A stretch of 22,464 nt of DNA from a virus, in IMG/VR virus record IMGVR_UViG_3300021470_000031, positions 1-22,464 of that record, one strand, 5' to 3'. Positions 1 through 22,200 of this stretch are shown here, piece after piece; position 1 is the stretch's first letter, and each line of letters opens with the position of its first letter. Both the position numbers and the translations under genes were made by a program. The notes below the pieces were generated by a model. That model saw nothing but the letters and a program-made list of their open reading frames with translations. It was not told where the DNA came from and did no database searches.

Positions 1-600
1 CCACCTCCTCCGTGCGATCAGCCGACCATTACCACGTCAGACCTGAATATTCTGGTTGACCCAACGATTGGAGATCCGCCCACCGTATGCCCGGATTATT
101 CCGTTGATCTTTCAGCCCAGGTTTCAGTGGCAGGTGGAACGCTGGTCGGATTCGCCATGGTTGGTAATGATGGGTCTGAAACCAATGCTTATGGACCGAG
201 CGACTCAGTGACTGTCAACAACCCCGGAGAGTACACGTTTAAGGCTCACGCGGTATCGGATTCGGGATGCCCATCCAGTGCTGATTTCAAGGTCAGGGTT
301 TCATGTGTGTATCTTCCCCCGCACATGGAAGGATTGCTCCAGCTTGAATCAGGTGGAATTTTTGGGTACGACATTTTCTGGAACATCTACACCAAGCAGT
401 ACGATGTGAACCAGGCTGAATCTTCACTGCTTCCCGACATGACATCGTTCCCGGTAGTTTGGAATGCCATCATTGGGTACACCGATGGGGAAGGTTCTTA
501 TTTGACGAAGTGGAAGCTTAACGTAACCCCACTTGGAACATACGAACTTGTGATGGTCACACAAGGTGAGGTATCTTTCAAGACCATCGAAATATCGTAA
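1..600 (+). CDS. Phage structural protein with Ig-like character, 5'-truncated
   Basis: The frame is open from the first base of the window to the TAA at 598-600, so this is the last 199 residues of a longer protein. The visible part begins with a Pro-rich run (PPPPCDQPTITTSD) and continues as alternating hydrophobic/polar beta-type sequence. The segment NPGEYTFKAHAVSDSGCPSS, followed by a short beta strand, resembles Ig-like/PKD-type surface domains of phage virion proteins. An internal GTG at 127 could be read as a start, but the coding character continues upstream of it, so truncation at the window edge is preferred. The stop overlaps the ATG of the Thr/Ser-repeat mini-gene (TAATG). No enzyme motif is visible. 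An exposed tail or capsid decoration role is inferred from fold impression and context only. Confidence 0.6.
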   Translation, partial: PPPPCDQPTITTSDLNILVDPTIGDPPTVCPDYSVDLSAQVSVAGGTLVGFAMVGNDGSETNAYGPSDSVTVNNPGEYTFKAHAVSDSGCPSSADFKVRVSCVYLPPHMEGLLQLESGGIFGYDIFWNIYTKQYDVNQAESSLLPDMTSFPVVWNAIIGYTDGEGSYLTKWKLNVTPLGTYELVMVTQGEVSFKTIEIS

Positions 601-725
601 TGCGCTTCGACCTCATCATCAAGTCGCCCTGCGAAACACCTGAAGGTGGCAATTCCACAACTACCACCGGAAGCGACTCGACGACGACCACATCTTCGGA
701 CTCCACCACCACGACCAGCACCTGA
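600..725 (+). CDS. Thr/Ser-repeat (mucin-like) mini-protein, 41 aa
   Basis: A 41-codon frame starts in TAATG at the upstream stop and ends in TGATG at the downstream glycosyltransferase start, so both ends are translationally coupled. After a short N-terminus (MRFDLIIKSPCETPEGG), residues 18-41 are almost entirely Thr and Ser. The octapeptide SDSTTTTS occurs twice in tandem (25-32, 33-40), preceded by NSTTTTG, giving three STTTT blocks. No signal peptide or membrane segment is visible. Such composition is typical of O-glycosylated linkers. Because the genes that follow encode glycosyltransferases, one ppGalNAc-transferase-like, it could be a glycan acceptor, but that is inference. It could also be a degenerate peptide from duplication of the next gene's start, since both begin MRF and share nearby bases. 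Confidence 0.6.
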   Translation: MRFDLIIKSPCETPEGGNSTTTTGSDSTTTTSSDSTTTTST

Positions 726-1381
726 TGCGCTTCGTCGTCAAGTACCCCACGCGCGGGCGTCCCACGCTGTTCCTGCGCCAGCTCCAGCGGTATCGCTCCA
801 TGGCGTCCCGCAAGCACCAGATCAAGTTCGTTGTCTCCGTGGACGAGGATGACGCCACAATGAACTGCGAGGATGTCCGGCGCATCGCCAAGGCCACCCC
901 CAACCTGTTCATCCACCGGGGCCGCTCCACGGGCAAGATCGCGGCGGTGAACGCGGACATGGACAAGCTGGGCGACTACGACATCCTGATCCTCGCCTCG
1001 GACGACATGATCCCGCAGATGGTCGGGTACGATGACCTGATCGCCACGCTGATGCAGAAGCACTTCCCGAACCTGGACGGGGTGCTGCACTTCCGGGATG
1101 GGCTCAACCATGCGAATCTGAACACGATGCCGATCATGGGCAAGCGGCTGGTGGACAAATGGGGCTACGTGTATCATCCGTCCTACGTTTCGGAGTGGTG
1201 TGACAACGAATTCATGTGCGTCACTGAGCGCGATGGCAAGAGCGCCAAGTTCGACCAGGTTCTCTTCAAGCACGAGTGGACCACTCACACCGGCACCGAT
1301 GCCACCTTCAAGCGCAACAGCGGATTCTTCGAGCGTGACCAGAAGAACTTCCTCGCACGCCAGGCCGCAGGATTCCCGTGA
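725..1381 (+). CDS. Glycosyltransferase, GT-A/GT2-like
   Basis: A 218-residue protein with the layout of a short GT-A fold nucleotide-sugar transferase. There is an N-terminal beta strand (MRFVVKYPTRGRP), then SVDEDD at 38-43, the STGKIAAVNADM segment at 68-79, which resembles the GxxxARNxG region of GT2 enzymes, and LASDDMIP at 90-97 as the likely DxD-type metal and sugar-nucleotide site. A later acidic SEWCDNEF (156-163) may supply the acceptor-side acid. No membrane segment is seen, so it should be cytosolic. The ATG lies in a TGATG overlap with the Thr/Ser-repeat gene, and the stop overlaps the GTG of the next transferase, so these genes are one operon. Donor and acceptor cannot be read from sequence. 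Confidence 0.75.
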   Translation: MRFVVKYPTRGRPTLFLRQLQRYRSMASRKHQIKFVVSVDEDDATMNCEDVRRIAKATPNLFIHRGRSTGKIAAVNADMDKLGDYDILILASDDMIPQMVGYDDLIATLMQKHFPNLDGVLHFRDGLNHANLNTMPIMGKRLVDKWGYVYHPSYVSEWCDNEFMCVTERDGKSAKFDQVLFKHEWTTHTGTDATFKRNSGFFERDQKNFLARQAAGFP

Positions 1382-1929
1382 GCGCACCCGAACTATCCAT
1401 CCTCATCTGCACGCTGCCCGAGCGCGGGGCCGTTCTCCAGCGCCTCCAGCAGATGCTTCAGCGCCAGATGGCCCGGCAGCCGGTGGAGATGATCTTCGAC
1501 CGCACGGGGCCGCACATGACCGTTGGGGCCAAGCGCAATGCCCTGCTCTCCCGTGCCAGCGGCCGGTACGTGGCCTTCATTGACGACGACGATACGATTC
1601 ACACTTCCTACGTTGGCCTCGTGTTGGATCGCCTGAAGTTCAATCCCGATTGCGTGGAGCTGCGCGGCACAATGACCACGAATGGGGTGAATCCGAAGCA
1701 GTTCATCCACACCATCCACTGCACCCACTGGCACGAGAAGGATGGCGTGTACTGGAGGATGCCGAATCACCTGAATCCCATCCGTCGGGAGCTGGCTGTG
1801 AGGGCTGGCTTCCCAGAGAAGTCCTTTGGGGAAGACCACGAGTTCAGCCAACGGGTCCAACCGCTGCTCAAGACCCAGGCGGAACTTCCAATTTCGATCT
1901 ACAACTACTTGTACAGAACCAGAAAATAA
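1378..1929 (+). CDS. GT2-family glycosyltransferase, compact
   Basis: A 183-residue GT2-type enzyme. LSILICTLPERG (7-18) is the first beta strand and loop, TVGAKRNALL (48-57) is the family's 'GxxRNxG'-like helix start, and FIDDDDTIH (67-75) is the DxD metal-binding motif. FGEDHEFSQRV near residue 150 matches the ED-type catalytic motif. It is shorter than the usual 230-300 residues but has all core motifs, so it is probably functional. The start is a GTG overlapping the previous stop by four bases (GTGA), which argues for translational coupling. It ends with TAA one base before the Tad1-like gene. Acceptor unknown. Confidence 0.82.
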   Translation: MSAPELSILICTLPERGAVLQRLQQMLQRQMARQPVEMIFDRTGPHMTVGAKRNALLSRASGRYVAFIDDDDTIHTSYVGLVLDRLKFNPDCVELRGTMTTNGVNPKQFIHTIHCTHWHEKDGVYWRMPNHLNPIRRELAVRAGFPEKSFGEDHEFSQRVQPLLKTQAELPISIYNYLYRTRK

Positions 1930-2314: not shown

Positions 2315-3109
2315 ATGAAGAAGGTCATCAGTTACAGTCTGTTCTGGCTCGGCAAGGATGAGCACTCGCTGCTCTACTCCAATGGCATCAAGGCCATCTG
2401 CCGGGCGCATCACTCCGTATTTCCGGGGTGGGAGTGGCGCGTCCACCATGATGGCACCATCGGCTCTGACAAGACGGCCCGCCACCTCGCGGCCTACGAG
2501 AAGGCTGGCCTTGTGAAGCTCGTGGACATCGGCCCGCAGACCAGCATCTGCCGGGCGATGATCTCGCGGATGATGCCGGTGTGGGACACCGATGTTTCGC
2601 ACACGCTCTGCCGCGACATGGACTCGCTTCCGACGCCGCGTGATGCCATGGCCGTGGCGCAGTTTATCGAGTCCCGCGCTGCCATGCACTGCTTGGCGGA
2701 TCATGTTCAGCACGGCGCGTGCATCATGGGCGGCCTGTGCGGATTCCGAAACGACCGCTTCCGCCAGATCACCCGCATCCCGCACTACGAGTCGTTCATC
2801 TCGCAGGAACCTCTCGACCGGCATGGCGATGACCAGCTCCTCCTCGCCAAGAAGGTATGGCCATTCCTCCAGCACAGCCTGTGCGAGCATCGCCTGGGCG
2901 GCCACCGCACGCCGCACGCGGTGCGCTCCTACGACAAGATCGCAGCAGTCGCTCTCCCCGGAGTCCTCCCCGAGGTGGTTGCTGGCGGCGACTCCCTGAT
3001 CCCGTTCATGGGTGCTCCCGGCTTTGACTTCCACCGCGCCGAAGCTTTCTACAATGAGCATGGCGATCCGGTCCTGATGCAGAAAATCTCCGAAGCTGAA
3101 TCCGCATGA
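2315..3109 (+). CDS. Glycosyltransferase of the R-D-x-D-S type (GT-A-like)
   Basis: A 264-residue protein whose centre carries CRDMDSLPTPRD (99-110), the pattern of a little-characterised transferase family in which R-D-x-D-S takes the place of the DxD motif. It is followed by ADHVQHG and MGGLCGFR (128-145), equivalent to the family's 'RDHP.H...GGMWG' segment, and RHGDDQLLLAKK (169-180), a conserved acidic motif. The N-terminus (MKKVISYSLFWLG) is a typical Rossmann-like first strand. The gene starts three bases after the Tad1-like stop with a weak GAAG upstream, and its stop overlaps the next ATG (ATGA). It is probably a cytosolic sugar transferase in the cassette. Substrate unknown. Confidence 0.65.
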   Translation: MKKVISYSLFWLGKDEHSLLYSNGIKAICRAHHSVFPGWEWRVHHDGTIGSDKTARHLAAYEKAGLVKLVDIGPQTSICRAMISRMMPVWDTDVSHTLCRDMDSLPTPRDAMAVAQFIESRAAMHCLADHVQHGACIMGGLCGFRNDRFRQITRIPHYESFISQEPLDRHGDDQLLLAKKVWPFLQHSLCEHRLGGHRTPHAVRSYDKIAAVALPGVLPEVVAGGDSLIPFMGAPGFDFHRAEAFYNEHGDPVLMQKISEAESA

Positions 3110-3786
3110 AGTTCAACTACCGATCCATCCCGCGCGACAAGCTGGCCATGCTGGACCAGTTCGCCGCCATGGCCTGCTCTACCAAGCAAGGCATCCAGCA
3201 CACCTACCTTGCCGCGCTGGACATCGCGGAGCGCGGAGTGCCCGGAGAGGTGGTCGAGTGCGGCGTCGCCTATGGTGCCCAAATCTGCTCCATGGCGGAG
3301 GCATTGCGCGGGCAGTCCCGCACCTTTCACCTGTTCGACTCCTTCGTCGGAATCCCCATGGCCGGAATTCATGACCACGACCAGCCCGGCATTGGAAAGC
3401 ACGTCGTCGATCCGAACCTTCCGATTGAGCAGCGACTCGTGTCCAGCGGCATCAGCGCATCCTCGGTGGAGAACGTGAAGCGCAACCTGGCCAAGTTCAA
3501 CTTCGACGCCAACTTCCTCTACCATCCCGGCTGGTTTCAGGACACGGTGGGTGCCGTTGAGACTGGTCCGATTGCGATTCTCCGGCTCGACGGCGATCTC
3601 TACGAGTCCACCAAGGTCTGCCTGGAGAACCTGTTCTTCCGTATCGTGAGCGGTGGATGCCTCATCCTCGACGATTACCCGCTGCCGGGCTCCCGCAAGG
3701 CGCTGGACGATTTCTTCCGGGACATGGGCATCGACCTAAAGCCTGTCATTGAGTGCGATACCGGTGCTGCCTACTTCCGCATATGA
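3106..3786 (+). CDS. TylF/MycF-type SAM-dependent O-methyltransferase
   Basis: A 226-residue class I methyltransferase of the macrocin-O-methyltransferase (TylF) family. Motif I is VVECGVAYG (49-57). LFDSFVGIP (76-84) is the diagnostic TylF segment, and LRLDGDLYEST (159-169) followed by GGCLILDDY (183-191) supplies the metal-binding acidic residues and motif for the family. Length matches family members (about 220-260). Known members methylate sugar hydroxyls on macrolides or polysaccharides, so in this cassette it most likely decorates a glycan. Translationally coupled on both sides by ATGA overlaps. Confidence 0.85.
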   Translation: MKFNYRSIPRDKLAMLDQFAAMACSTKQGIQHTYLAALDIAERGVPGEVVECGVAYGAQICSMAEALRGQSRTFHLFDSFVGIPMAGIHDHDQPGIGKHVVDPNLPIEQRLVSSGISASSVENVKRNLAKFNFDANFLYHPGWFQDTVGAVETGPIAILRLDGDLYESTKVCLENLFFRIVSGGCLILDDYPLPGSRKALDDFFRDMGIDLKPVIECDTGAAYFRI

Positions 3787-4640
3787 ACCTCGCTGTTGTT
3801 TATCTTGCCGCGCCGCGTGAGTGGTCATGGCTGAAATGGTCAAGGCTGGACTGCCTGAAGGCTTCACTGAAGCTGTTGAAGCAGTTCGGAGGTGGTTGGC
3901 CGGTCATCATCTTCAACGAAGACTTTACCGATAAAGACGAGGAAGAATTGCAGGAGATTTACCGGCCGATCAAGTTCGAGCGTGTGGACTTTTCCACCCA
4001 CAAGGACCGTTACAAGCCGGGCTACCGGGATGCCCGTGTTGGCACCTACGGGTACGGCATGATGTGTCGGTTCTTCAGCGGCGTCATGCAGGCGCATCCC
4101 TCGCTTCAGGGATTCACCCACTACATGCGGCTCGACGATGACTCGTACTTCATGTCTCCGCTCACGGGAGGAATCATCCAGCGCATTGCCGAGAACGACT
4201 ATACCTACCGCTGCACCTTCGAGGACTACGTTCCAAGCTTCAACCAGTTCACCGAGGAGTTCATGCAGGCGCGTGGGTTCAAGTTCCTGTGGCCGCGCAT
4301 CGACGCAGTTCGCACGGCCCCGTACACGAACTATCACACCAGCAGCCTGAAGCTGTGGCGGCACCCGGTCATCAAGCAGTTCACCGACGAGATTGAGCAG
4401 CGCGATGGGGCCATCACGATGGGCTGGGATGACGCCATCGTTCAGGGCATGATCGCCACCGTGATCTGTCCGGTGCTCGGGTTGAAGGTTCACGTCGAGC
4501 GGGACTTCTGCTATCGCCACAACCAGCACTGCTCCCACCGGGAAGGTCACGGCCACACCGATCTTTGCCGGGATGGCAATGACGCGCACCACGGCGGGGA
4601 CATCAACTACAACTGGGGGCCGCCGGTAACGCTGGCGTGA
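3783..4640 (+). CDS. GT15-like (KRE2/MNT1-type) mannosyltransferase homologue
   Basis: A 285-residue protein with the pattern of GT15 alpha-1,2-mannosyltransferases, enzymes best known from the fungal Golgi. It has MCRFFSGVMQAHPSL (94-108), then HYMRLDDDSYF (113-123) in place of the family's YWRVEP.V.F segment, and TNYHTSSLKLWR (182-193). GWDDAIVQGM (214-223) takes the place of the ERWGDAPVHS catalytic/manganese segment, and VHVERDFCYRHNQHC (237-251) matches the family's final 'DIGYRH' block. It lacks the N-terminal membrane anchor of fungal enzymes, so it would be cytosolic. The ATG at 3783 in an ATGA overlap is preferred to an upstream in-frame GTG at 3753. Donor (GDP-mannose in the family) is inferred. 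Confidence 0.75.
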   Translation: MNLAVVYLAAPREWSWLKWSRLDCLKASLKLLKQFGGGWPVIIFNEDFTDKDEEELQEIYRPIKFERVDFSTHKDRYKPGYRDARVGTYGYGMMCRFFSGVMQAHPSLQGFTHYMRLDDDSYFMSPLTGGIIQRIAENDYTYRCTFEDYVPSFNQFTEEFMQARGFKFLWPRIDAVRTAPYTNYHTSSLKLWRHPVIKQFTDEIEQRDGAITMGWDDAIVQGMIATVICPVLGLKVHVERDFCYRHNQHCSHREGHGHTDLCRDGNDAHHGGDINYNWGPPVTLA

Positions 4641-5008
4641 ACTACTTCTTCGACATTGGCGCGAACTCCGGCCAGGCATTCGACTGGTTCCTCTGCCAGA
4701 CCGACAGGTACGATGGTTGTGAGGTGTTCCTCTTCGAGCCATCCCCGAGGAGTCTCCCTGCTCTGATGGAAAAGGCCAAGGCGATGTCGTCCAGGTTCAA
4801 CGTGACCATTCTGCCGTTCGCCGTCGCATCGGCTTCTGGCACTGGCAGATTCAACGAGAGCGTTGACTCGCTGTGCGATTCACTTCAGCCGCGCTCGCTT
4901 CACAACGACCTCCACAACCGTCCCAACAAGGAATCCGGTCTTGGTCCTACGGACTGGGCAAGAAAATCCTTGCTTTACGTCGCTTCCAGCGGTATTCGTA
5001 TTACGTGA
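4637..5008 (+). CDS. FkbM-like SAM methyltransferase, C-terminally truncated
   Basis: A 123-residue frame starting at a GTG that overlaps the previous stop. It has the N-terminal half of an FkbM-type methyltransferase: FFDIGANSGQAF (4-15) is the SAM-binding motif I, FLFEPSPRSLPAL (31-43) is motif II, and ILPFAVASASGTGRF (58-72) is the usual 'n.Avs..G...f' block. FkbM proteins normally run beyond 220 residues with a 'vDVEG.E' acidic motif. Here the sequence leaves family-like character at about residue 95-100 and ends within 25 residues, just before a minus-strand tRNA. A 3' deletion or replacement at about 4920-5010 is likely, so it may be a non-functional remnant. Confidence 0.65.
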   Translation: MNYFFDIGANSGQAFDWFLCQTDRYDGCEVFLFEPSPRSLPALMEKAKAMSSRFNVTILPFAVASASGTGRFNESVDSLCDSLQPRSLHNDLHNRPNKESGLGPTDWARKSLLYVASSGIRIT

Positions 5009-5014
5009 ATTGAG

Positions 5015-5089
5015 TGGAACCGGCGGGGATTGGACCCGCGTTTCGCGCAGTGTAAACCAGCGGCGTTCTACCAATTGAACTACGGTCCC
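5015..5089 (-). tRNA. tRNA-like gene, anticodon ambiguous (TAC Val or TTA)
   Basis: Read on the minus strand, a 75-base cloverleaf is visible: acceptor GGGACCG (5089-5083) pairs with CGGTTCC (5022-5016, one G-U), followed by discriminator A. D arm GTTC/GAAC encloses AATTGGTA, and T arm GCGGG/CCCGC encloses TCCAATC. No CCA is encoded. The anticodon arm is irregular. The best stem, CGCTG/CTGCG with one U-U mismatch, gives loop GTTTACA and anticodon TTA (reads UAA). The loop consensus TTTACAC instead suggests TAC (valine), but with a poorly paired stem. Position 55 of the T loop is C rather than T. It lies opposite in strand to the flanking cassette genes. Confidence 0.7.
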
Positions 5090-5155: not shown

Positions 5156-5285
5156 CTTTCTGAATGGAAAGAATCAGCCACAGGAGGAAATTAGGACACT
5201 ACCGAAAGCGGAGCGCGATCTGGAGCAGGAATTGATGCGTCGGTTAAATGAGGCTGGCTATGTTGCGAGAATCTTGCCATACTGA
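5127..5285 (+). CDS. Possible small charged protein, 52 aa
   Basis: A frame from a GTG at 5127 to TGA at 5283-5285 encodes up to 52 residues. Its second half (EEIRTLPKAERDLEQELM then RRLNEAGYVARILPY) reads like a charged amphipathic helix from a real protein rather than random translation. The start is unclear. The GTG lies in the terminator loop without a ribosome site, and an ATG at 5235 would leave only 16 residues. An AGGAGG at 5182-5187 has no usable start codon after it. It may be the remnant of a longer gene lost next to the tRNA. Its stop is seven bases before the GT25 start. Confidence 0.3.
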   Translation: MTELSRRPLFFLNGKNQPQEEIRTLPKAERDLEQELMRRLNEAGYVARILPY

Positions 5286-5292
5286 TTCCAGC

Positions 5293-6018
5293 ATGATCGC
5301 CCGCGTAATCTCAGTTCACCCCCACCAGTGGAAGCCTGGCGTCCATTCCAAGTTCGTGCGCCGCTGGAAGCATGTGCAGGAGGTGCTGTTGCCGAGTATC
5401 CGCTCCATGGACATCGAAGCGGAGCCCATCGAAGCCGTGCTCTCAGTCGATCTTCCTCCGGTCGTGAATGGCAAGCTCACCTTCGACGGCTTGGAGCTGA
5501 CCATCGGTGAGGGTTGCACTGGAAACACGCTCTCCAATTACCTGCTTTGGAAGCTGGCTGTGGAGCGCAATGAGTCGGTTCTTATCTTGGAGGACGATGC
5601 CATCATGTCTCCTCATAATGCATACTACGTGGAGGGCGCACTGGATTCATTTGGTGCGATGAACACTGGCTTCAGCGACATCCTCTACTTGCTCTCCCAG
5701 TGCCCTTACCTGAAGGACACGTACAAGGGCTACCATCCGTCGGAGTGCCAGCCTATTGACAGGTTCATCACGCGGTTGAAATCCACGGCTGATCTCGCCT
5801 GTACCGCTGCCTATGTCGTCACCCCCAAGGCTGCGCGCGTGCTCATCGACCGGCTGACCAAGGCTCCGACCGTTCCTGTGGACGGCTTTGTCCACCGCGC
5901 TTTCCGTGACGGCGTGCTTGGGGTGGTAGTCCAGCGCGATCCCATGAAGGGCTTCATGCTCAACGATAACTGGGCGGAGTGGAACCACAAGAACTCGCCC
6001 GAGCTGCTCCATGCGTGA
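5293..6018 (+). CDS. GT25-family (LPS-type) glycosyltransferase
   Basis: A 241-residue protein with the GT25 signature. The N-terminus MIARVISVHPHQWKPG is followed by a region ending in EGCTGNTLSNYLLWK (73-87), the family's 'GC..SH..lw' equivalent. LILEDDAI (97-104) is the metal-binding EDD motif, AAYVVTPKAARVLID (172-186) is the conserved 'gYliS..gA..Ll' block, and PVDGFVHR (195-202) is the 'pvD.....' motif. GT25 members add galactose, glucose or other sugars to LPS cores or, in other lineages, to hydroxylysine. The ATG at 5293 is preferred to in-frame ATG 5248 because family-like sequence begins there, though no strong ribosome site is seen. Its stop overlaps the GTG of the next gene. Confidence 0.82.
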   Translation: MIARVISVHPHQWKPGVHSKFVRRWKHVQEVLLPSIRSMDIEAEPIEAVLSVDLPPVVNGKLTFDGLELTIGEGCTGNTLSNYLLWKLAVERNESVLILEDDAIMSPHNAYYVEGALDSFGAMNTGFSDILYLLSQCPYLKDTYKGYHPSECQPIDRFITRLKSTADLACTAAYVVTPKAARVLIDRLTKAPTVPVDGFVHRAFRDGVLGVVVQRDPMKGFMLNDNWAEWNHKNSPELLHA

Positions 6019-6734
6019 AGATCTCAGCTATCTGCTGTACCTACGGACGGCCCGATCTGCTCGAAGAGGCCATCGAGAGCTTTCTGAAGCAGGACTTCCA
6101 AGCGGATCAGCGCGAACTGGTGGTCTGGAACACGATGAACCGGCAGAAGCTCGTGCTGAAGCATCCCGGCGTCCGCATCATCAACGAGCCCATCCGCCCA
6201 TCTACCCTGGGGGAAACTCGCAATCGCGCGATTGGGCAGTGCCTCGGGGAGATGGTGCTGACGTGGGACGATGACGACATCTACCTGCCGGGCTACATCT
6301 CCTGGCTCGTGAGGCACATGGAGGGGCGCGACTGGGTGAAGCAGAATCACCGCTGGTCCATGAACGCAAGCCGCAAGGTTCACCTGTCAGAGCAGGCCAC
6401 CAACCAAGTGATGTTCCGCAAGGATGCGTGGCATCGCTCTGGAGGCTATCCCCACATGGATAGCGGCGAGGACCGGGTGTTCATGGACCGCTTGAAGGCG
6501 TGCTCGAAGGGCGATGTAGTGCCGTGCGCGTGCGAGGAGATCGGTTTCATCTATCGCTTTGGATTCGGACCTTACAACATCAGCGGCATTGGGCCGACGG
6601 TGCTGGGCCGCCCTACCGGGATGCGCGAGGCGGAGCGGCTCGTGCTGATGAAGACGCACCGGTTCGGAACCATCAACTTGCGGCCTCACTGGCGGGCTGA
6701 GTACGACCGGATTGTGAAAGCCTTATGCAAATAA
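6015..6734 (+). CDS. GT2-family glycosyltransferase
   Basis: A 240-residue GT2 enzyme. ISAICCTYGRPDLLEEAIES (3-22) is the first strand and helix, STLGETRNRAI (63-73) is the nucleotide-binding 'G...aRN.ai' segment, LTWDDDDIYLPGY (82-94) is the DxD metal site, and DSGEDRVFMDRL (149-160) is the ED catalytic motif. No membrane segment is visible. A GTG at 6015 overlapping the GT25 stop (GTGA) gives a start exactly at the first strand and is preferred to an ATG at 5979. The 3' end overlaps the next gene by ten bases. Donor and acceptor unknown. Confidence 0.87.
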   Translation: MKISAICCTYGRPDLLEEAIESFLKQDFQADQRELVVWNTMNRQKLVLKHPGVRIINEPIRPSTLGETRNRAIGQCLGEMVLTWDDDDIYLPGYISWLVRHMEGRDWVKQNHRWSMNASRKVHLSEQATNQVMFRKDAWHRSGGYPHMDSGEDRVFMDRLKACSKGDVVPCACEEIGFIYRFGFGPYNISGIGPTVLGRPTGMREAERLVLMKTHRFGTINLRPHWRAEYDRIVKALCK

Positions 6735-7657
6735 TCTCCATAGTAATGACCGTCCGCAACGACCAGGACGAGGCGAACCGCACCATTCAGTCCATCCGCG
6801 ATACCGCTGGTGATCGCGTCGAGATTGTGGTCATCGACGACGGCAGTGATGTGCCGCTGGTGCTGGCTGACGGGAACACCGTCTTCTACCGCGTCCACGG
6901 ACGCTGTGGCGTCGGACCCGCGCGTCACCTCGGGGCCACACTCGCCAGTCGTCCATGGCTGCTCATCATCGACGCGCACATGCGCTTTGAGCCCGGCTGG
7001 CTGGAGATCGCTGAAGCACGCCTGAAGAGCCATGATCGGACACTTTTCTGCGGCACCTGCATCGGCCTCGACCGTGGTAACATGGAGATGAGCCGACCTA
7101 ACAGCGTGTACAATGGCGCATTCATCCGGTTCGTCGGACCAGATGAGAACACTGGCAAGATGCAGTTCCTGGAGGCCAAGTGGCTGCGCTCCCCCGTGGC
7201 CGACAACGAGGAGATTCCTTGCGTGCTCGGTGCCTGCTACTTCATCCAGCGGAGCTTCTTCTTCCAGATTGGCGGTCTGCGGATGCTCACCGGGTGGGGG
7301 AACGATGAGGACTTCCTCTCGTTGAAAGCGTGGTTGGCAGGTGGGTCAGTGCGGCTCCTGAAGCCAGTTCGAATCGGCCACCAGTTCCGCACGGCCACCA
7401 CCTATACCACCAAGACAGCGGCCATCCTGCGGAACAAGCTGATGATCGCCACCACGATCTTCCCCGAGGATGCTGCCAGATGGTTTTCTGCGATGATGTT
7501 GGCGCACACGCAGCCCATCGGAGAGATCAACCTGGCCATGCAGCTTGCCAAGAATGACCAGCCGCAGATCGAGTGCGAGCGGGCCATGTACAATGCCGTG
7601 TTCGAGCGGTCGTTCGAGGCGTGGCTGGAACGCTGGACAGTTCAGCGGTTCTGGTAG
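6725..7657 (+). CDS. GT27-like (polypeptide GalNAc-transferase-type) glycosyltransferase
   Basis: A 310-residue GT-A enzyme closest in pattern to polypeptide N-acetylgalactosaminyltransferases. It has ISIVMTVRNDQDEANRTIQS (4-23), VVIDDGS (35-41), and IDAHMRFEPGW (82-92), in which D-A-H replaces DxD as in GT27. CVLGACYFIQRSFFFQIGG (166-184) corresponds to the family's 'aGGlf.i.r.yF.eiG'. WGNDEDFLSLKAWLAGG (191-207) corresponds to 'WGGENlE.SfR.WqCGG', with IGHQFR (217-222) after it. It lacks an N-terminal anchor and a C-terminal ricin domain. GT27 enzymes attach the first GalNAc to Ser/Thr, so a peptide acceptor is a reasonable inference, although some bacterial relatives use other acceptors. 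Confidence 0.8.
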   Translation: MQIISIVMTVRNDQDEANRTIQSIRDTAGDRVEIVVIDDGSDVPLVLADGNTVFYRVHGRCGVGPARHLGATLASRPWLLIIDAHMRFEPGWLEIAEARLKSHDRTLFCGTCIGLDRGNMEMSRPNSVYNGAFIRFVGPDENTGKMQFLEAKWLRSPVADNEEIPCVLGACYFIQRSFFFQIGGLRMLTGWGNDEDFLSLKAWLAGGSVRLLKPVRIGHQFRTATTYTTKTAAILRNKLMIATTIFPEDAARWFSAMMLAHTQPIGEINLAMQLAKNDQPQIECERAMYNAVFERSFEAWLERWTVQRFW

Positions 7658-9193: not shown

Positions 9194-9388
9194 ATGACCA
9201 GTTGTCCGCTTCCGAGCCAGTTCGACGCCTTGCGCCCGGCTGATCCGCAGAATCCCACCTGCGATGAGCTGCGGAACATCCTGCTCAACGGCAACAACCT
9301 GCTGGCCGACTTCAACGCCTGCTGGTACAACGAGGACGGCTCCCTGACAACGAACCTTGTGGCCCAAATCTGCGCCACCTCCTGCTGA
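9194..9388 (+). CDS. 64-aa virion module protein, paralogous to the N-terminus of the next gene
   Basis: A 64-residue protein that matches residues 1-64 of the next gene product nearly position for position. Both have PSQF[D/N]ALR near residues 7-16, a Cys at 23/24, a hydrophobic helix with a D.[N/Y]..WY pattern, N.DGS ending at residue 50, and QIC/KIC at 58-60 followed by AT[S/G]C at 61-64. The module probably folds as a small helical unit that docks on the virion. Here it stands alone and ends exactly where the longer protein enters its Gly/Ser linker. It starts just after a five-base inverted repeat (GCCAG/CTGGC, 9177-9193) and is two bases from the next ATG. Confidence 0.7.
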   Translation: MTSCPLPSQFDALRPADPQNPTCDELRNILLNGNNLLADFNACWYNEDGSLTTNLVAQICATSC

Positions 9389-9390
9389 TT

Positions 9391-10395
9391 ATGGCCCTAC
9401 CCGCTCTCCCCACACCGTCCCAGTTCAACGCCCTGCGCGTCACCTCGGGAGATCCCGCCTGCACGGTCCTCCAGAACTACGTGGCGATGATTAACTACGT
9501 GGCGGACTGGTACGCCAACATCTACAACCCGGACGGCTCGTTCACCCAGGAGTTTATCGACAAGATTTGCGCTACGGGCTGCGCGGGCGGTGGTACCGGA
9601 TCATCCACCACCGGGGCTTCCAGCAGCGTCTCGCTGTACATGGCCAGCCGGTTCCTCGACAGCGGCGTGTACCGGGGCCGATTCTTCTACATCGACTCCT
9701 CCTCGTTCACCTACAGCACGATCAACGGCAGCATGAACGAGGTCATCACAGGAATTGCTGTGCGGCCTTCCGATGGCAAGGTGTTCGTGCTCTACTACGA
9801 CTGGACACTTGGAGTGCATCCGCTGGACCTATGGCTCGGCACGATCAGCACTTCAACCGGCGTCATCACACCGATTGCAATCACGGTCCCCGGTGGCGGC
9901 CTGCTCCCGAATCCTGACTACTCGCTGTGCTTCCGCGCTGACGGCACGCTGTTCATGTCCAATCGCCTCGGGGCTCCGCAAATCTACACCGTCAACACGA
10001 CCACCGGAGTACCCACGGCCCTGGGCGCTGGCATCTACTGGGGTGGCACTGGGACGCTCAAGCCGGACTCCATCAGCTTTGACGCCAGCGGAATCCTATA
10101 CGGGTACGGTTGCGATGGCAGCGCGGTGGCAGGAACGCTCTTCACGATCAATACCACTCCGAACCCGTCATATGGGCTCGCGCTCGTGGCGACGCTCTCC
10201 TGCGGCTCCGTGAACCCGTGTGGCACTTTCAATGCGCTGGCGATCAAGGGCGGCCAGAAGATGGTGTTCTACACTGGCACTGGCGATCTGTACTCCATCC
10301 GCGACGGCTCCGGGTGTCTCTCTCCAGCCGCGCTCAAAATGCTCGGCTCCACGGCCATGGCTGACGTGACTGCTGCTGGAGGCATCCCATCGTAA
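9391..10395 (+). CDS. Virion protein: docking module plus propeller-like body
   Basis: A 334-residue protein in three parts. Residues 1-64 repeat the module encoded just upstream. Residues 65-80 are a flexible Gly/Ser/Thr linker (AGGGTGSSTTGASSSV). From about 85 to the end, beta-rich units recur: GIAVRPSDGKVFVLYYD, LGTISTSTGVITPIAI, YSLCFRADGTLFMSN, IYTVNTTTGVPTALG, ISFDASGILYGYG and LFTINTTPN. This alternation of 'xxDGxLY' and 'LYTVNTTTG' is characteristic of beta-propellers of the NHL/DUF4394 kind. A receptor-binding or tail-surface role is inferred. The stop overlaps the start of the next gene (TAATG), placing it in the structural operon. Confidence 0.72.
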   Translation: MALPALPTPSQFNALRVTSGDPACTVLQNYVAMINYVADWYANIYNPDGSFTQEFIDKICATGCAGGGTGSSTTGASSSVSLYMASRFLDSGVYRGRFFYIDSSSFTYSTINGSMNEVITGIAVRPSDGKVFVLYYDWTLGVHPLDLWLGTISTSTGVITPIAITVPGGGLLPNPDYSLCFRADGTLFMSNRLGAPQIYTVNTTTGVPTALGAGIYWGGTGTLKPDSISFDASGILYGYGCDGSAVAGTLFTINTTPNPSYGLALVATLSCGSVNPCGTFNALAIKGGQKMVFYTGTGDLYSIRDGSGCLSPAALKMLGSTAMADVTAAGGIPS

Positions 10396-13290: not shown

Positions 13291-16200
13291 TCAAGCTAGT
13301 TTCTGCGTGAGTGACAGCCGTTTGAAGGTTGTTGCACGGGGGCGCTGCAACCGGCTCACTCCTGCCATTGACACCCGTGCCCGCTGAGGAGCGCGGCCCC
13401 GCAGCGTCAACCGGCCAACGCGCACACCCCGGCTGCCACCCGGCCCGGCCCCGCGCCCGGCGGAGATCATTCCCACCGATCCACTGCCACCGCCACCCGC
13501 CGTGGCCGCCACTGCTGAAACGCCGCTGCCGCCGCGCGTCGCCGCCACCTCTTCCTTGGTGATCGCTCCCGGACGGCCGAACAGCGCCTGCGCTCCTGCC
13601 TGCCACGCCTCGATGCCGCGCTGCTGGGTTTCAGCGCGTTCGCCAGTGGCACCCGAGGTGAGGGACTGGTACTCGGCATTGGTGACGCGGCGACCACCGA
13701 GGGCCGCCAGCACTGGATTCGTTTCCTGGTAGTCGCGCCAGACCGCCTGCTTGGCGTGCTTGGCCGCCTCCTCGGGCGTGTCCCCAAGCTTGGTGCGCTG
13801 CTCAACGTAGAAGTCAGTGAGCTTGGTGATTTGCTCCTGTGCGGAGGCCACCGCCTTGTCGTATCCAGCAGCGTCGCCTTCAGCCTGTGCTCGGGCCATG
13901 TTCCCGACGGACTCCTGCAAGAGGCGGCGCACCACGGTGGTCGGCCCAAAGGAAGGCGCGGCACCGGGCCGGGGCATTTCCATGTTCAGAGCCCGCGCTT
14001 CAGCGGCGGTGATCTGGGAGGAGCGGCGAAGGTCGGTGTTAGCACCGAACAGCTTGCGAAGCTCCTGCGCGCCGGGGGTGAGGCGGCTCGCGGCGTCGAT
14101 CAGTGGCACCGCGAAGTCAGATCCCTTACCAGCGCCCTGCGCAGTCTGATATGCGCCTGTCACTGCATTCGACATTGCCTGGATGAGTGACACGAGGAAC
14201 ACGCGGCTCGCGGGATCAAATCCGCGATTGCCCTGAATCTGGTTCTGCAATCCGAGGATGATGTCCCCGATGTAGAACATGTTCGAGGCGAGGAATCGTC
14301 CCACCCCGGAGGCGAACTTGTCCTTGTTGTCCCAGAAGTCCTTGTCGAGTACGCCTGCCTGCGAGGATTGAATCCCCTGCATCCGGCGCTTCCAGTATTC
14401 CGATGCGCCGTCCGCTGCGGCCCCGGCCAGCAACATCATGGTGGCGATGCCGAACAGCATGGGCAGCTTGGCCGCAATCGTAGCGGCGGTGCGCCGGTCC
14501 CGCGTGCCGGAGAGCGGGATGTTGAGCAGCTTCAGCATGGCGTCAGCCGGATAGCCTTGCAGGGTGAGCACGGAACGCCAGATGGCGCTGCCGGATGAAA
14601 CGCTGGCGCGGTTGCTGGGCAGCGACGAGTTCATGGCAGCCAGCAGGGTACGCGAGACGGCATCGCGCTGGCGGTCAGTGTAGATCGGGATGTCGCGCCC
14701 AGCCTTCTGGTTCTGGTAGTAATCCCACAGGGCTTTCTCCAGTTGGAACCCTTCCGCGCTGGCACTGGTCTGGAACAGCAGCCGGGCGTTTTCAATGGCG
14801 TCCTTGCGGGCTTGCTCGTTGCCGGTGGTGCTCCACTCGGAGGGCTTCAACTGGAACGCGGGATCGGAGACATTGAAGTCAGTGTGCCCGGCGTCTTCGA
14901 GCCGCTTGCCATACTGCATGGCTACTTCCGTCAATCGCTGCTCCAGCGCCGCCGCACGGGCGAGGTTCAGGGAGTTGAGCACCTGGTCCGAGTTCTCCAC
15001 GCCCACGCTCCCAAGGAAGGCGTTGATGGTCTTGGCGGCAGTGAGCGCAGTACGTTGGACTGCGGCCAGCTTGGGATTACGGGCGGCCCATTCCTGATCG
15101 TCACGGTTGGTGAACAGTGCGGACTCCAGCCATGCCGCCTTCATGGCGTCGGTCCAGCCCTGCTTGGTGTCGTACCCGAGCTGCTTCACCGCTTCTAGAT
15201 CAGCCTTCCAGCCTGCCGCACTGATGGCGGGATTCCTGAGTGCGGCCCGCGCCGGTGCCAGCATGGCATCGGCCATCACATCGACCACCTTTTCCAGCGC
15301 ATTGCTGTTGCGGGTCAGGTTCTTGTCCACGAACTTGGCGGCCCCGTTCGCCCACACGTAGCCCAACCGGGCAAGGCCACGGGGCATGTTGGCCACCGCG
15401 TGCCACAGGGCCATGCGGTTCATGGTGATGCCCATGGCGATGTCGGACAGGTAAACCAGAAGCTGACCCTGGGTGAGGTTGCGAAGGTTGACGGTCGGGA
15501 GCGCCAGCACTCCGGACACCGCGAACTTGGCGATCTCGCTGGCGATGCGGGAGGGCAGCAGTGACGGATCGTTGACGGTGAAGGCCGCCTCGAAGTCCTT
15601 CTGGATGGCAGACAGGATTTGCAGCGTGTCCTTCAACTCGTTAATGTCGCCGCCATAGTGTTCAGCGGCTTCCTTGGCGGAGAGCCTGCTGGCGTCGGTT
15701 CGGTTGTAGCCATCGAGACGGCTCCTTAACTCACCAACCGCCCGGCGCAGCGAGTTGGCGTACTCGACGATGTTCTGATGATTGGCGGCCGACTGCTTGG
15801 CGATGCGCTCGCCAGGCGTCAACGCGCCGTAGTTGTAGAGCGAGGATGGCAGTTCGAGGTTCTTGGCAGGCTTGGTGAACTCGTTGTCCGCCGAGAGCGC
15901 CACCTTGATGCCGCTGTTCCGCTCATTCTCATCACGCTCAGATTGGATGCGCGCACCTTCCTTGGCGTACTGGGCGAGTTCTGAATTCAGGCGCTCCGTG
16001 ACGTAGGACACAGGATTCACCCCGGCGAGCGGCTTCAGGGTGGTGGCGAGCTGGGAGGCCAGTTCGGACAGGTTCGACGGCTGCACCTCCGCACCAGACT
16101 TCCACAGCGCGGCCAGGCGCTTCTCCGCTTCCTGCATGGCCGGGTCCAGCTTCATGGTGCGGTCAGTGCGCCCGCTGTCATTGATGTGGTCGATCAGCAT

Positions 16201-19200
16201 CTGGTTGTTGCTGTTCCAGAACTGTACCACCGGATTGGAGGAGGAATTGGTCAGGTCCGTGGCCGCATCGAATCCACCCGTCTTGTAGGCTTCTGCCATG
16301 TTGGCGATGAAGGACTTGACATGCTGGTTCAGGTGGCGGTCCATGCCGTAGTCACCCACCGATCCGCTCTTGCGGATGAACGTGTCGCCACCGACCTGAA
16401 AGCGCACACCCCGCAGCGGATTCGTTTCGGAAACCTCCGTGCGCTGGAAGCCATTGAGCTGAAGCTGGCGGCGCAGCAGGGCCATGTCTTCCTTGGTGAC
16501 GATGGCCCCGGTGGGGAGCTGGAATCCGACCTTCAATTCAGATCCGAACTTGCGGCCCTCATGCGCCATGGGATTGAACACCCGCTGGCGGTACACCTCG
16601 TAGTTCTTGTGCGAGTTGTCATTAGGATTCGCCGGGTCTTCGTGCGAGTGCATCGCCTGCGAAGTGAGCTTGGGAAGATCCTCGAAGCGGGACATGACGC
16701 GCTTGCTGTCCAGCGTGCCTTGAATCCAGCGGCCCATGCTGGTGCGCAACGCATTGCCAATGATCCCGCCCACCATCTTGACCGCCGCCTCGTGCTGGCG
16801 GAACCAGGGCAGCTTCTGGAGCTGGCGGCTGATGGTGGCCGTCTTCAGGCGGTTGAATCCGGTGTCAAGGAATTCGCCGCGTCCATTGCCGATCTCGGCG
16901 CGGAGCCCGCGTGCGACGGATTCCTTGAAGCCGAGCTGCTCGGGGGTCTTGGCAGTCGGGTCGAGCTTGCTCAGGAAGTATGCCCTATCGTAATCATCGC
17001 AGTACTTCTCCGCCGCATCGAACCACGACAGCATCTTCTTTCGCGCAGCCTCCTGAGTGGACGGGTCTTGTGCCACGTTGATGACCACCTCCTGATGGTT
17101 CGGCGTCTGGCCGCTCGTGCCAAACTCCTTGAACACGAAGCCGGACGGCGGGCGCTCGATCATGCTTTGGAGCCCACCCTTGGAGGCGTAATCCAAACTG
17201 CCGCGCAGCGTCTGGAACTGCGGCGATGCCACGAGATTGTTAAACAGGTCCGCGCCATGGTTGAGCGCCGTCAGCCGCGTGAGCAGCTTGTTGATGGTGC
17301 GGGATGCCTGCCGGTTGTCGGCCCGCGAGGCCACCACAGCGGGATTTACCGTGCGGCCAAGCTGGTTGGCAATCTGCGCGGCGGCATTCAGGCCGGGCTT
17401 GCCACCCAGCTTCAGCGCATCGGCAATGCTCGGTAGCGCGCCCACAAGCTGCGCCGGGTTGCTGGCCGCCTTGGCTGCCGCTGCGGCATCTGCCAAGGCC
17501 ACGATGCTGGAGGCGAACTGCGGGGAGCTGCCCGCCACGTCGATCACCTTCTGGAGCACCTCGGGGGAGACGTTCAAGGAGGTGGCATCAATGGGCGAGA
17601 ACGTGACGGAACCACCCGGCGACGCGCGCCATCCGGAGAGAAAGTCGTAGAGCCAGCGGTTCTGGGTGAGATTCTCACCGAGATGCTTGGCGAGGTTGGT
17701 GATGGCGGTGACGTTGTTCAGCAGCGAATCCACCTCGGTGGCAGTCAGGACCGAATGCGCCAGCGAAGGATCGCCCTTGGCGGCGTTGAGTGCGGCCTGA
17801 ATCAGCGCCTCGTTCTCCTGCGTGTCGTTGGCGGACTTGCTGAAGGACTTCTGCGCATCCTCGATCTGCTTGATGATGTCCACCTGCTCCTGCTGGAGGA
17901 GGTCGTTCATCTGCTGGCGTGCATCATCGAACTCCAGAAACGCCTTCTGCAACTCCGACACCACGGCATCCTGCTGGCGCTGGTCCAGCGGCGTGTTCTC
18001 TTCAATCGCGTTCTGGATGGTGGCCGGGAGATCGCCGTAGCGGCGGTACTCGTCAGCAAGCGTCTTGAGCTTCTCTGGGTCGGTGGTCGTCTTGCGCAGC
18101 TCGTCGATGAGATCGCGGGCAGCCTTGGCCTTGTCGAAGAGGTTCCGCAGGCGCGCAATGCCAGCGCCAAAGAAGTCGGCCACCGGCCCGAGGTGCAGTG
18201 CGTCCACCTTGGCCTGTGCCTCGATGCGGTTGGATTCGGCCTGCTTCAGCTCGTTCACGCGGTCCCCGACGGCGGCGTCTGCGCCATTGCGTTCCAGGAC
18301 GGTGGCTTCGGAGTTGGCGATGGCAGCCGTGTTCAGCGCAATCAAGTCTTGCAGGCGCTTCACCTCGGAGGCCGGAGCATTGATCTTCTGGTAGTAGGCC
18401 AGCCGGTCACGTAGGTCTTGCAGGCGCTCCCGCGCATCGGATGCCTTGCGGGACAGGTGCTCGAAGTACAGCTCGGCCTGCATGGCCTTCACGTTGTCCG
18501 GGTTGTGCTGGATGCCCAGGGCCGTGAGCTTCTTGCTGAAGGTGTCATCCACCACGATGCGGCCCCCGACGGTGGCGATGCCGTCCGTGACCTTGGGGTA
18601 CAGGTCCGGGTGGCGCTGGTCCTCGGGCATCCGGCGGATGGCTCCATCGGCCAGGTTCACCAGCGTGGACAGCGCGGACTTGGCCTGCCGGAACTGCGAC
18701 TTCTCGAAGGCGGTCTTGTCCAGCGTGCTGTAGCCATCCTCCAAGTCCGCGTACTGCTGGGCGGCAAGCTGGGGGATGGCCTCGGTGGCGGCGTTGACTT
18801 CGAGCTGGTTGACGGCGGTGCGCTCGGCGGCGTTGAGGGCTTCGTTCTCGGCGGCGAGTTCCTGCTGGATGGACTGCGCGGCAGACTTCGCATCAATGCC
18901 GCTGGCGGGGAACTGCTGGCGCACTTTGTCCACGGCCTCGCGGATGGCGACTTCCAGCGGGCGACCAGCGCGGAGGATGTGCTTGGCGACTTGCAGGGCG
19001 ACCGGCCCCCATACGGTGGACAGGAACGGGTCCGAGAAGGTTTTTCCCTTGAGCTTCTTCTGGAGGTTGTCGATGGCGGCGATGGCGGCGTCGGTGGTGA
19101 GGGGTTTAGCTGAAGTCCGCTGCTCTTCAGCAACCCTTCGGGAAGATTTCTTAACGATCTCAAGCTGGGAGATTGGCACACGCTTGCTACCAAACCAGTC

Positions 19201-22200
19201 CACAGTAGCCATCGGTTCTTGATCGTTCACCATCTTCGTAATCTGCTGCACGGTAGCGCGAGCCATGTCCCCGGCACCGGTCCTCCATGTCACCTCATCG
19301 CTTACCTGCGGAATAAGGTCGTTGGTCTGCGGCTTCGGAGCCGGTTCATTTGTAACCTGTTCCGGCTTTGGGGATTCGTACCACTTTGGAGGCGACCTGT
19401 CGGCTTTTGACACGATCTGAGGCTTTCCAGACCTGTCGAATCCGGTGACATCTTCGGAGAACATCGCCCGCTTTGCCTCCGACATCCGCATCAGGTCTTC
19501 ATTGGAAGGCGATGCTTTCGTGAGGTCAGCGCCAGAATGGATGAGTGCCTTGATGAACTGCTTGGCCTGCGCGAGGGTTGGAATCTTCAGATCGTTTCCA
19601 AGCCCAAGGCCGCTCGCAACATGAATGATCTTGAACTTGTATGGTCCAGTCTTGTTTCCAGTAGGAATGATTGCGATTCCTCCATAAACAGTGGCGTCAA
19701 CTTCTGTCTTTCCTGCATCCCTATTGGTAGTGAGGATTTTTTTCTTCTCAGCCTTTGGTAGTTCAGTTGCATTCACCTCGGCATCGTAATCAGAACGGCG
19801 CTTGGACTCAGCCTCCGCTTCCGCCTTTTGCTTTGCTTCAGCAGCTTCCCGCGTGGCTTTGCGCTCAAGGTATTCGGTCTTGGCATTCTTGAAGGCTGAG
19901 TCATGCAGTGTGGCATCAGGATGACGCTCAACAAATCGATAGGCGGTTTCGTAGCGGTTGGTTCCGCTCCCAAATCCGCCGCTCTCCCACTCCGAGAATG
20001 AACCATCAGGGCGCACGATTCTGGCTTCAATCTTATGAGTGTCTCCATCCTTTTTGAGCCGGTACTGGTAATGCGTTCCACCAACTGTCTCTTCAGCATG
20101 AACCCCCGCCACCTTCCCGAGCGCACCCTCCTGCGTGACGCCCTGGGGGAGAGGTGCAGCCGGGGTGGGGGAGGGTTGTTCAGGCTTTAGGACGCTACGG
20201 TCGAACACAAACGACTGTTGAGCCAGCTTGTAAGCCTTCCATCCCAACGCATTCAAATAGTCACCGACAGCTTTTGGAGAGGTTTCGCCATGCTTGTCAC
20301 GGAGGTATTTTGTGACCGATTCAACCACGTCTATTCCAGTTATTTTTCTTGGAAGTCCTATGACAGTGATTTTATCCATCCCCCTCTCAAGTAGATCGTT
20401 TTCAGAAACAATTTGGTCATGCCTTAGCACGTCATCCGCTTCGAGCTTGTACTTCGACACCTTCCCGTAGCTTTTAGCCACGTCCTCTGAAGTGGTTACA
20501 GATGTTCCGATGTGGCCTTCCCCGCTTCCTCCGGTTTCACCACGGTACACTGTTTCTGAGATTGGATTCTTGGTGTATTCAGGCGGTTTCGATTTTGACA
20601 CCACCGACTCAAGCAATGTCTTGTAGTCTCGGTCCAGACCCATCTTCTTGAGATACTCCGCAACCCTGTCGATTGATTTGGTTTTCTCGAACAGGTCAAG
20701 CGCGTTCAGGAAGTATAAACCGTTTCCAGAGATGACCTTCCTTCCGGTTCCGAGATCCCATGAGTGCGCAGGAGTTGCATCCCTGGCAAGCTTTAAAAGC
20801 TCAGTCTCGACAGCCATTGATCCATGTATTCCTACAATTCCTGACGACTTTATTTGCTCGGCAGCACCCCCCTCCTTGCCCATCTCCTGCGGCACCACCC
20901 TGGGGGAGGCGGGCGGGGTGGGGGAGGGTTCAGCGGGATGCTTCCTTTTTTGAACCTCGCTTAGAACATGTTCGAAGAGAGCCTCAGCACTCTGGAACTG
21001 AGCGACAACCTTTCCAGTTTTATACTGTGGAGCTGGCTTCTCGCCGGGAGCAGTCCAAGTCGGTTCCCCTGCCACCACATTGATGGACCCATCCTCTTGC
21101 TTTACAAAGTCAACGAACTGACCACTGGCAAAGAGTGAACTTTGAGGAGCGTGCTGCGGAGCCTTGCCGCCAAATTTCTCAAACCCGTCATTAAGCGACT
21201 TGAGCCAGTCACTCTTAATCTGATCGGGAGTCCGGTTGGTGATCTCCTTCATCATGGCCGCGATGTCAGTGAAAGCACCAAGCGCATTCGCCTCGCGATT
21301 TGAAAGTCCGGCAGCAAGACCTTCCTGCATTTTCTTTTCGCCAGCCGATTGGGACTGATCCGCATTGCTGATGCTGAGTTCTTCATTCATGCGGACCACC
21401 GTGGACCGTTCTGGGCCAGATGTCAACTTTGCATTTGGATTCGTCAGCGACAATCTCCCCGACGCCTGCTCAACCTTGGGCGTCCTCTTGAGATCACCAT
21501 CCGGCAGGTTCACTCCCACCGACTCAAGGAACTTGGAAACCCGATCCGTGATCGTCTTGGCGAATTCGATCTTGTCGCCCTGGCTGCTGGATTCCCGCGT
21601 GGTGTACTTGTCGATCTCGCGGATCAGATCGGACTTCGTGATGCCATTCTCAGCCATCCTGCGGGCAGCAATGGCAGCACTGATATAGCGGTCACTGGTG
21701 ACGCGCTCATCGACGCCACGCACGACGGCTGAAATGAGCGCAGATGGAAGCGCATCAGGATTCTCGCTGGCAACCTCTTCCGGGTTGATCCGCTTGTCAC
21801 CCTCCCAGAATTCAAACGGGTGGCCCTTCTTGTTGTAGGGTGAGTGCTCGAAGAACTGCTCCATGCGGGCAGCCTTCTCAGGGCCAATGCGCTGTTCAAA
21901 CTTCTTGGTCGAGGCTTCCCGGAACACTAAATCGTGAAGCTCCTGCGCCTCCTTCTGAGTGAGCCCGATCTCCTGGCGGTACAGGGCCACCTCTTCAGCC
22001 AACCGCTTCTTACGGAAGGCTAGTAGTTCATCCACCGAGTTGAAGGTTTCCGGTGTTGGTGTCTGTGTGACTGCTTTCGGCTCAACCTTTGGAGCCACCA
22101 CCCCCTGCGGATTCGTCAGCGACAACCTCCGCGCCCCCGCCAACACCGCCCGAGGATTCTCCACGCGCTTCACCTCCGGGACACCGGGCTTGGAGAATGA

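Follow-up and report, generated by a model that had tools for sequence, protein, structure and literature searches.

What does a phage gain from a gene whose 41-residue product is about half serine and threonine, and which is wedged between a virion protein and a series of sugar enzymes? The gene lies in a 22,464-base record of an uncultivated virus (the window, i.e. the whole stretch of DNA analysed here), belonging to a group of uncultivated short-tailed phages (Table 1). The open reading frame runs from ATG to TGA and encodes MRFDLIIKSPCETPEGGNSTTTTGSDSTTTTSSDSTTTTST, whose composition, three STTTT blocks and perfect tandem octapeptide SDSTTTTS (residues 25-32 and 33-40; positions 672-695 and 696-719) are as the initial annotation had described them. 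The two octapeptide units differ at 7 of 8 codons, every difference being synonymous, and the repeat has thus been kept as protein and is not the product of recent DNA slippage; all four Thr codons are in use in the gene. The start codon shares bases with the upstream stop (TAATG) and the stop codon with the start of the glycosyltransferase gene (TGATG), so that the proposed translational coupling on both sides holds in the window; the junction with the glycosyltransferase is shared by the nearest relative only, and elsewhere another small ORF intervenes. In several relatives, the ORFs between the mini-protein and the glycosyltransferase are small, Cys-rich and zinc-ribbon-like (7158-7463 in L017, 14935-15186 in L099), and a Pfam scan of these ORFs gave no convincing match. 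The upstream neck/tail protein has 59% identity over 103 aa to the neck protein of the nearest relative, the distal C-terminus not being shared, and its Ig-like Pfam match is weak and below the cut-off.

Table 1. Features of the mini-protein locus and the adjoining sugar-enzyme operon in the window.
Feature	Positions	Strand	Evidence
Neck/tail virion protein, C-terminal part	1..600	+	includes Ig-like stretch; full length 825-826 aa in close relatives
Mini-protein gene, predicted docking motif and Ser/Thr tail	600..725	+	ORF; conserved in relatives; purifying selection
N-terminal anchor motif, residues 1-14 (MRFDLIIKSPCETP), Cys11	600..641	+	common to large adhesin N-termini
Ser/Thr-rich tail, residues 15-41, 74% S/T	642..722	+	S/T fraction in homologues 0.59-0.74
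Glycosyltransferase-like protein (GT1)	725..1381	+	phrog_14945, E=2.7e-14; no Pfam match
Glycosyltransferase family 2, homologue of Che8 gp108 N-terminal half	1378..1929	+	PF00535 7e-7; 33% identity
TylF-like O-methyltransferase, homologue of Che8 gp108 C-terminal half	3106..3786	+	PF05711 2e-34; gp108 E=1e-7
Mannosyltransferase-like protein (Glyco_transf_15)	3753..4640	+	PF01793 2.4e-8
Glycosyltransferase family 25 protein	5281..6018	+	PF01755 1.5e-12 (scanned from 5248)
Glycosyltransferase-like protein	5979..6734	+	syntenic L017 homologue under a PF00535 match
Glycosyltransferase family 2	6725..7657	+	PF00535 1.7e-16

Database searches with the peptide itself returned no match in isolated phages (tblastn, even at E=10) and no meaningful family in PHROGs and Pfam, and the nearest relative was the only viral contig matched by DNA patterns of the peptide. 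Since these contigs contain other Ser/Thr-rich frames that are spurious, it took conservation to decide whether the frame is a gene. The nearest relative, IMGVR_UViG_3300020229_000024 (L001/L098), encodes the identical 41 residues with nine nucleotide differences, all of them third-position and synonymous; when nine changes were placed at random, they caused 6.5 amino-acid changes on average and never none at all (20,000 trials). Between the more divergent pair L017 and L021 we counted 22.8 synonymous changes on 38 sites but 7.2 non-synonymous ones on 106, so that dN is well below dS. Homologues of 40-48 aa follow the same neck/tail protein at the same site in at least six further contigs, and eight related contigs have the gene in this position. 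The homologues include those of L101 (on the same contig as L017), L100, L102, L053, L052, L050 (40 aa) and L099 (43 aa), and the frame is intact in every contig that carries it. Their tails vary in sequence and length, yet all are 59-74% Ser/Thr. The 41-aa frame is a real gene, in place and under purifying selection; an absent or broken frame in relatives, which the initial annotation had named as evidence against its proposal, was looked for, and the frame proved to be conserved.

The key point, which the initial annotation had missed, is that the N-terminus of the mini-protein is common to large adhesins. We gathered further relatives (some 50 or more contigs) by searches with the capsid and neck proteins. 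In about 19 distant relatives the gene directly after the neck protein encodes a long virion adhesin (about 850-1520 aa), whose N-terminus has the same pattern as the first ~14 residues of the mini-protein, MRFDxIIxxPCETP (examples are MNFGLIIKVDCVN in L103 and MNFGRITSANCAN in L077, Cys being residue 11). We made a profile of the long adhesins only, with the mini-proteins left out; it gives the mini-proteins 21.5-23.0 bits (21.5 for the window peptide), a level that adhesins alone reach when the N-termini of 1919 ORFs in 18 related contigs are scored. The family is marked by an N-terminus of the M[NR][FL][GD]xI type together with Cys11, which is present in 24 of 25 anchors; in the remaining one (L065) the Cys is shifted towards the N-terminus by one residue. 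The bodies behind the anchor differ: in the adhesin of L041/L077, VWA and P domains pass the Pfam cut-off, Big_2 and F5/8 match more weakly, and one stretch resembles a phage tail protein family; the close relative L056 has two tandem 339-aa genes at the site, each with the anchor and the same Ser/Thr repeats, of which the first, the one scanned, continues into a BNR/Asp-box propeller after the repeats and the second ends alike. The mini-protein shares with the adhesin anchor family both the N-terminal pattern with Cys11 and the position after the neck/tail protein. Distal binding domains are present in the long adhesins and in L056 and absent from the mini-proteins, and we therefore classify the latter as a stand-alone variant of the anchor and not as an adhesin. 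From homology and position we infer that residues 1-14 are a docking peptide, a well-supported prediction. Tail fibres and spikes of phages have modular N-terminal anchors, in which a short conserved N-terminus attaches varied distal domains. The present motif is similar in this respect, but it has only ~14 residues, with Cys at position 11, and it exists in a stand-alone form with a Ser/Thr tail.

Ser/Thr-rich ends are also found on a second protein of this phage group, the putative major capsid protein. It had no meaningful match in Pfam or PHROG and no relative in isolated phages or GTDB genomes. A first structural model (9 sequences) was poor (pLDDT 46) and was set aside; the model of the L098 protein (pLDDT 76) has an HK97 fold with residues 564-572 below pLDDT 50, and the solved structures closest to it are phage capsids (VIA Z 15.2 for VP1 and 14.8 for phicrAss001), which predicts that the Thr-tailed protein is an HK97-fold major capsid protein with a disordered tail. 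In most of the clade the protein terminates in a run of Thr or of Ser/Thr (such as STTTTPA or TTTTTTYH), whereas in a second clade the capsid protein ends in GSYYV or DIYE without a Thr run; a T-run followed by PA recurs at the C-terminal ends of both capsid protein and mini-protein. Within the contigs whose capsid protein is Thr-tailed, every long ORF that has a Thr run is a virion gene (capsid, neck or adhesin); most were classed automatically, and the three ORFs that fell under 'other' are capsid or neck proteins of contigs missing the neck end. In L042, L085 and L092 the Thr run joins the capsid C-terminus to an extra domain, which looks DUF5977-like by eye. We counted a capsid tail as Thr-rich if it had at least three consecutive T, or six S/T among seven residues, a rule that we set ourselves. 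Among contigs of at least 25 kb, all 15 with such a tail encode a PF00535 enzyme, as do 3 of the 12 without (Fisher 4.7e-5), a correlation that tracks clades and a value that is uncorrected for descent. Some phages have glycosyltransferases without a Thr-rich capsid tail.

The enzymes encoded downstream of the mini-protein include a Che8-type set, namely the GT2 and TylF O-methyltransferase families of gp108, which itself matches TylF, and the GT25 family of gp110 (PF01755 1.2e-7); the pairwise match of gp110 with the GT25 protein of the window is marginal (E=0.007 over 43 aa), and the link is by Pfam family only. Virion glycosylation has been described for the mycobacteriophages Che8, Corndog and Myrna (Freeman et al. 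2023, via PMC12363180, PMC12619734, PMC11600133); the Che8 and Corndog enzymes are reported in these papers to glycosylate the capsid and the tail tube, the C-termini of which bear the glycans. These reported sites correspond in the phage group of the window to a capsid C-terminus that is a Thr run, whereas the capsid and tail-tube C-termini of Che8 itself are not Thr-rich; furthermore, the Che8 enzymes are encoded far from the virion genes and those of the window adjoin them, and the excerpted accounts of Che8-type systems describe no stand-alone acceptor peptide. Relatives of the GT1 protein come from MAGs with labels that include Planctomycetota, Chlamydiae and Bacteroidota, too mixed a set for a host to be named, and the mini-protein was not found beside these relatives.

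Two further ORFs lie inside the sugar operon. The product of 1931-2311 matches the Acb2/Tad1 hairpin in Pfam (28.0 bits at a cut-off of 27) as well as PHROG 2428 and is possibly a cyclic-nucleotide sponge against host defence. The stretch 4637-5089 encodes an FkbM-like methyltransferase fragment (123 aa, below the Pfam cut-off), with a tRNA-Val gene after it in the opposite orientation (5014-5089); this piece is absent at the corresponding site of L017 and looks like a captured or inserted one.

How might anchor, tail and enzymes act together? In the explanation that we prefer, the gene would give rise to a small virion protein, with residues 1-14 as the element that fastens the large adhesins of this phage group to the neck/tail region. 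The clade of the window lacks the adhesin body, and the anchor there carries only a flexible, mucin-like tail rich in Ser/Thr. This tail, like the Thr-run C-terminus of the capsid protein, would be O-glycosylated by the glycosyltransferases and O-methyltransferases of the adjoining operon, and the particle would thus display a glycan brush that replaces or scaffolds a protein adhesin. The parts of this explanation differ in strength. Docking of the mini-protein on the virion is quite probable, given the shared anchor and its position; glycosylation of its tail, argued from the resemblance to known systems and from the genes and proteins with which the tail is associated, is somewhat favoured; and the full statement, a virion-docked mini-protein with its tail as an O-glycan acceptor, seems to us evenly balanced. 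Only tentatively do we suggest the further step, that docking peptide and mucin-like tail are kept specifically to carry and display glycans made by the phage, taking over from a protein adhesin, the same enzymes also modifying the capsid Thr tails.

A peptide acceptor encoded together with its own glycosylation enzymes had been proposed in the initial annotation. The acceptor part of that proposal is compatible with our evidence, as glycosyltransferase genes follow the mini-protein in the relatives and two enzymes match Che8 gp108. The exclusive pairing has become weaker, because the long adhesins and the BNR form have glycosyltransferase genes after them too and Thr runs are found on the capsid as well; the range of targets of the enzymes is probably wider. 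Mucin-like or Thr-rich O-glycosylated linkers are dense in Ser and Thr. The mini-protein is like them in its dense Ser/Thr, its few charges and its repeats, kept as protein and not as DNA, and unlike them in that no sequon is strictly conserved. D(S/T)(A/I/L/M/T/V) is the O-glycosylation sequon of Bacteroidota; it does not occur in every mini-protein, DST being present in most tails and absent in L099.

The same observations leave some room for an unmodified anchor plus linker, i.e. a minimal plug or structural peptide that sits in the adhesin socket and whose repeats are a landing site for modular domains, while the nearby sugar enzymes act elsewhere, on the capsid tail or on host glycans. 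L056 uses the same Ser/Thr repeats to join anchor and propeller, Thr runs connect the capsid protein with the extra domain in L042, L085 and L092, and the enzymes follow virion genes with or without a mini-protein. These linker uses of Thr runs, and the presence of the enzymes in phages that have no mini-protein, weigh against glycosylation, which is nevertheless plausible; however, a tail with nothing attached to it has stayed Ser/Thr-rich, within the range given above, through deep divergence, and the terminal T-run with PA recurs on two different proteins. We consider the plain linker possible, though on the unlikely side. Improbable, by comparison, is a glycosylated acceptor or primer peptide that acts outside the virion, as an intracellular carrier or in secreted form: a stand-alone peptide with enzymes next door would suit such a role, but large adhesin-type proteins begin with the same anchor, and the gene lies within the virion block.

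The mini-protein equals the anchor and linker of longer proteins, and it might for this reason be a remnant, the decaying and functionless 5' stub of a former adhesin gene. Against this stand the exclusively synonymous differences between the window and its nearest relative, the low dN between L017 and L021, and the intact frame of 40-48 aa in all carriers. The neck-protein tree also bears on this question. The phages with the mini-protein or the BNR form make up one clade (support 100/100), in which mini-protein phages occupy the early branches and the BNR form is nested inside, some inner forks being modestly supported (93/82, 80/51). The simplest reading of this topology is that the stand-alone form is old in its clade and that L056 gained the propeller, repeated losses being a possible alternative history. 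The tree thus favours an old stand-alone form, the mini-protein is probably not a fresh truncation, and we regard a functionless remnant as decidedly improbable.

Two other explanations are highly improbable. The initial annotation had offered a C-terminal glycan tag for the upstream protein as its second option, and such a tag on the neck protein, produced by frameshifting or readthrough, would be in line with the close spacing and the 1-base overlap in the window. It is contradicted by an offset to the upstream stop that varies from -3 to +27 bases with no conserved frame, by an in-frame stop between the two genes in L017, by upstream C-termini that are unrelated even between phages with an identical peptide, and by the peptide's own conserved start and anchor motif. 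A leader peptide rich in Thr, acting on the glycosyltransferase operon through ribosome stalling or attenuation in the manner of E. coli thrL, would likewise be a short Thr-rich ORF upstream of an operon, but no terminator-like or promoter-like site was found in positions 300-1500, the N-terminal motif is conserved and common to adhesins, and all four Thr codons are used.

Phages commonly encode glycosyltransferases, few of which have a known target; the tail of the mini-protein and the capsid Thr tails offer testable candidate acceptor sites. Should the tail of the mini-protein prove to carry glycans, it would amount to a minimal phage mucin, and the particle would be decorated in a new way. 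Moreover, a very short docking motif could mark adhesins across a large group of uncultivated phages.

A comparable arrangement is seen elsewhere in the window, where a 64-aa stand-alone protein (9194-9388) and the N-terminus of the adjacent 334-aa protein (9391-10395) have a domain in common, and L017 encodes a stand-alone 76-aa form of this domain with a Ser-rich tail at its end (GCGSSGSSSTPP). By its sequence, this pair may represent a second docking-type module, parallel to the pair of mini-protein and adhesin. Finally, an open frame on the minus strand (13291-22464; 3057 aa), which has almost no Pfam match and runs off the end of the window, probably encodes a giant multi-domain virion protein or ejected protein.
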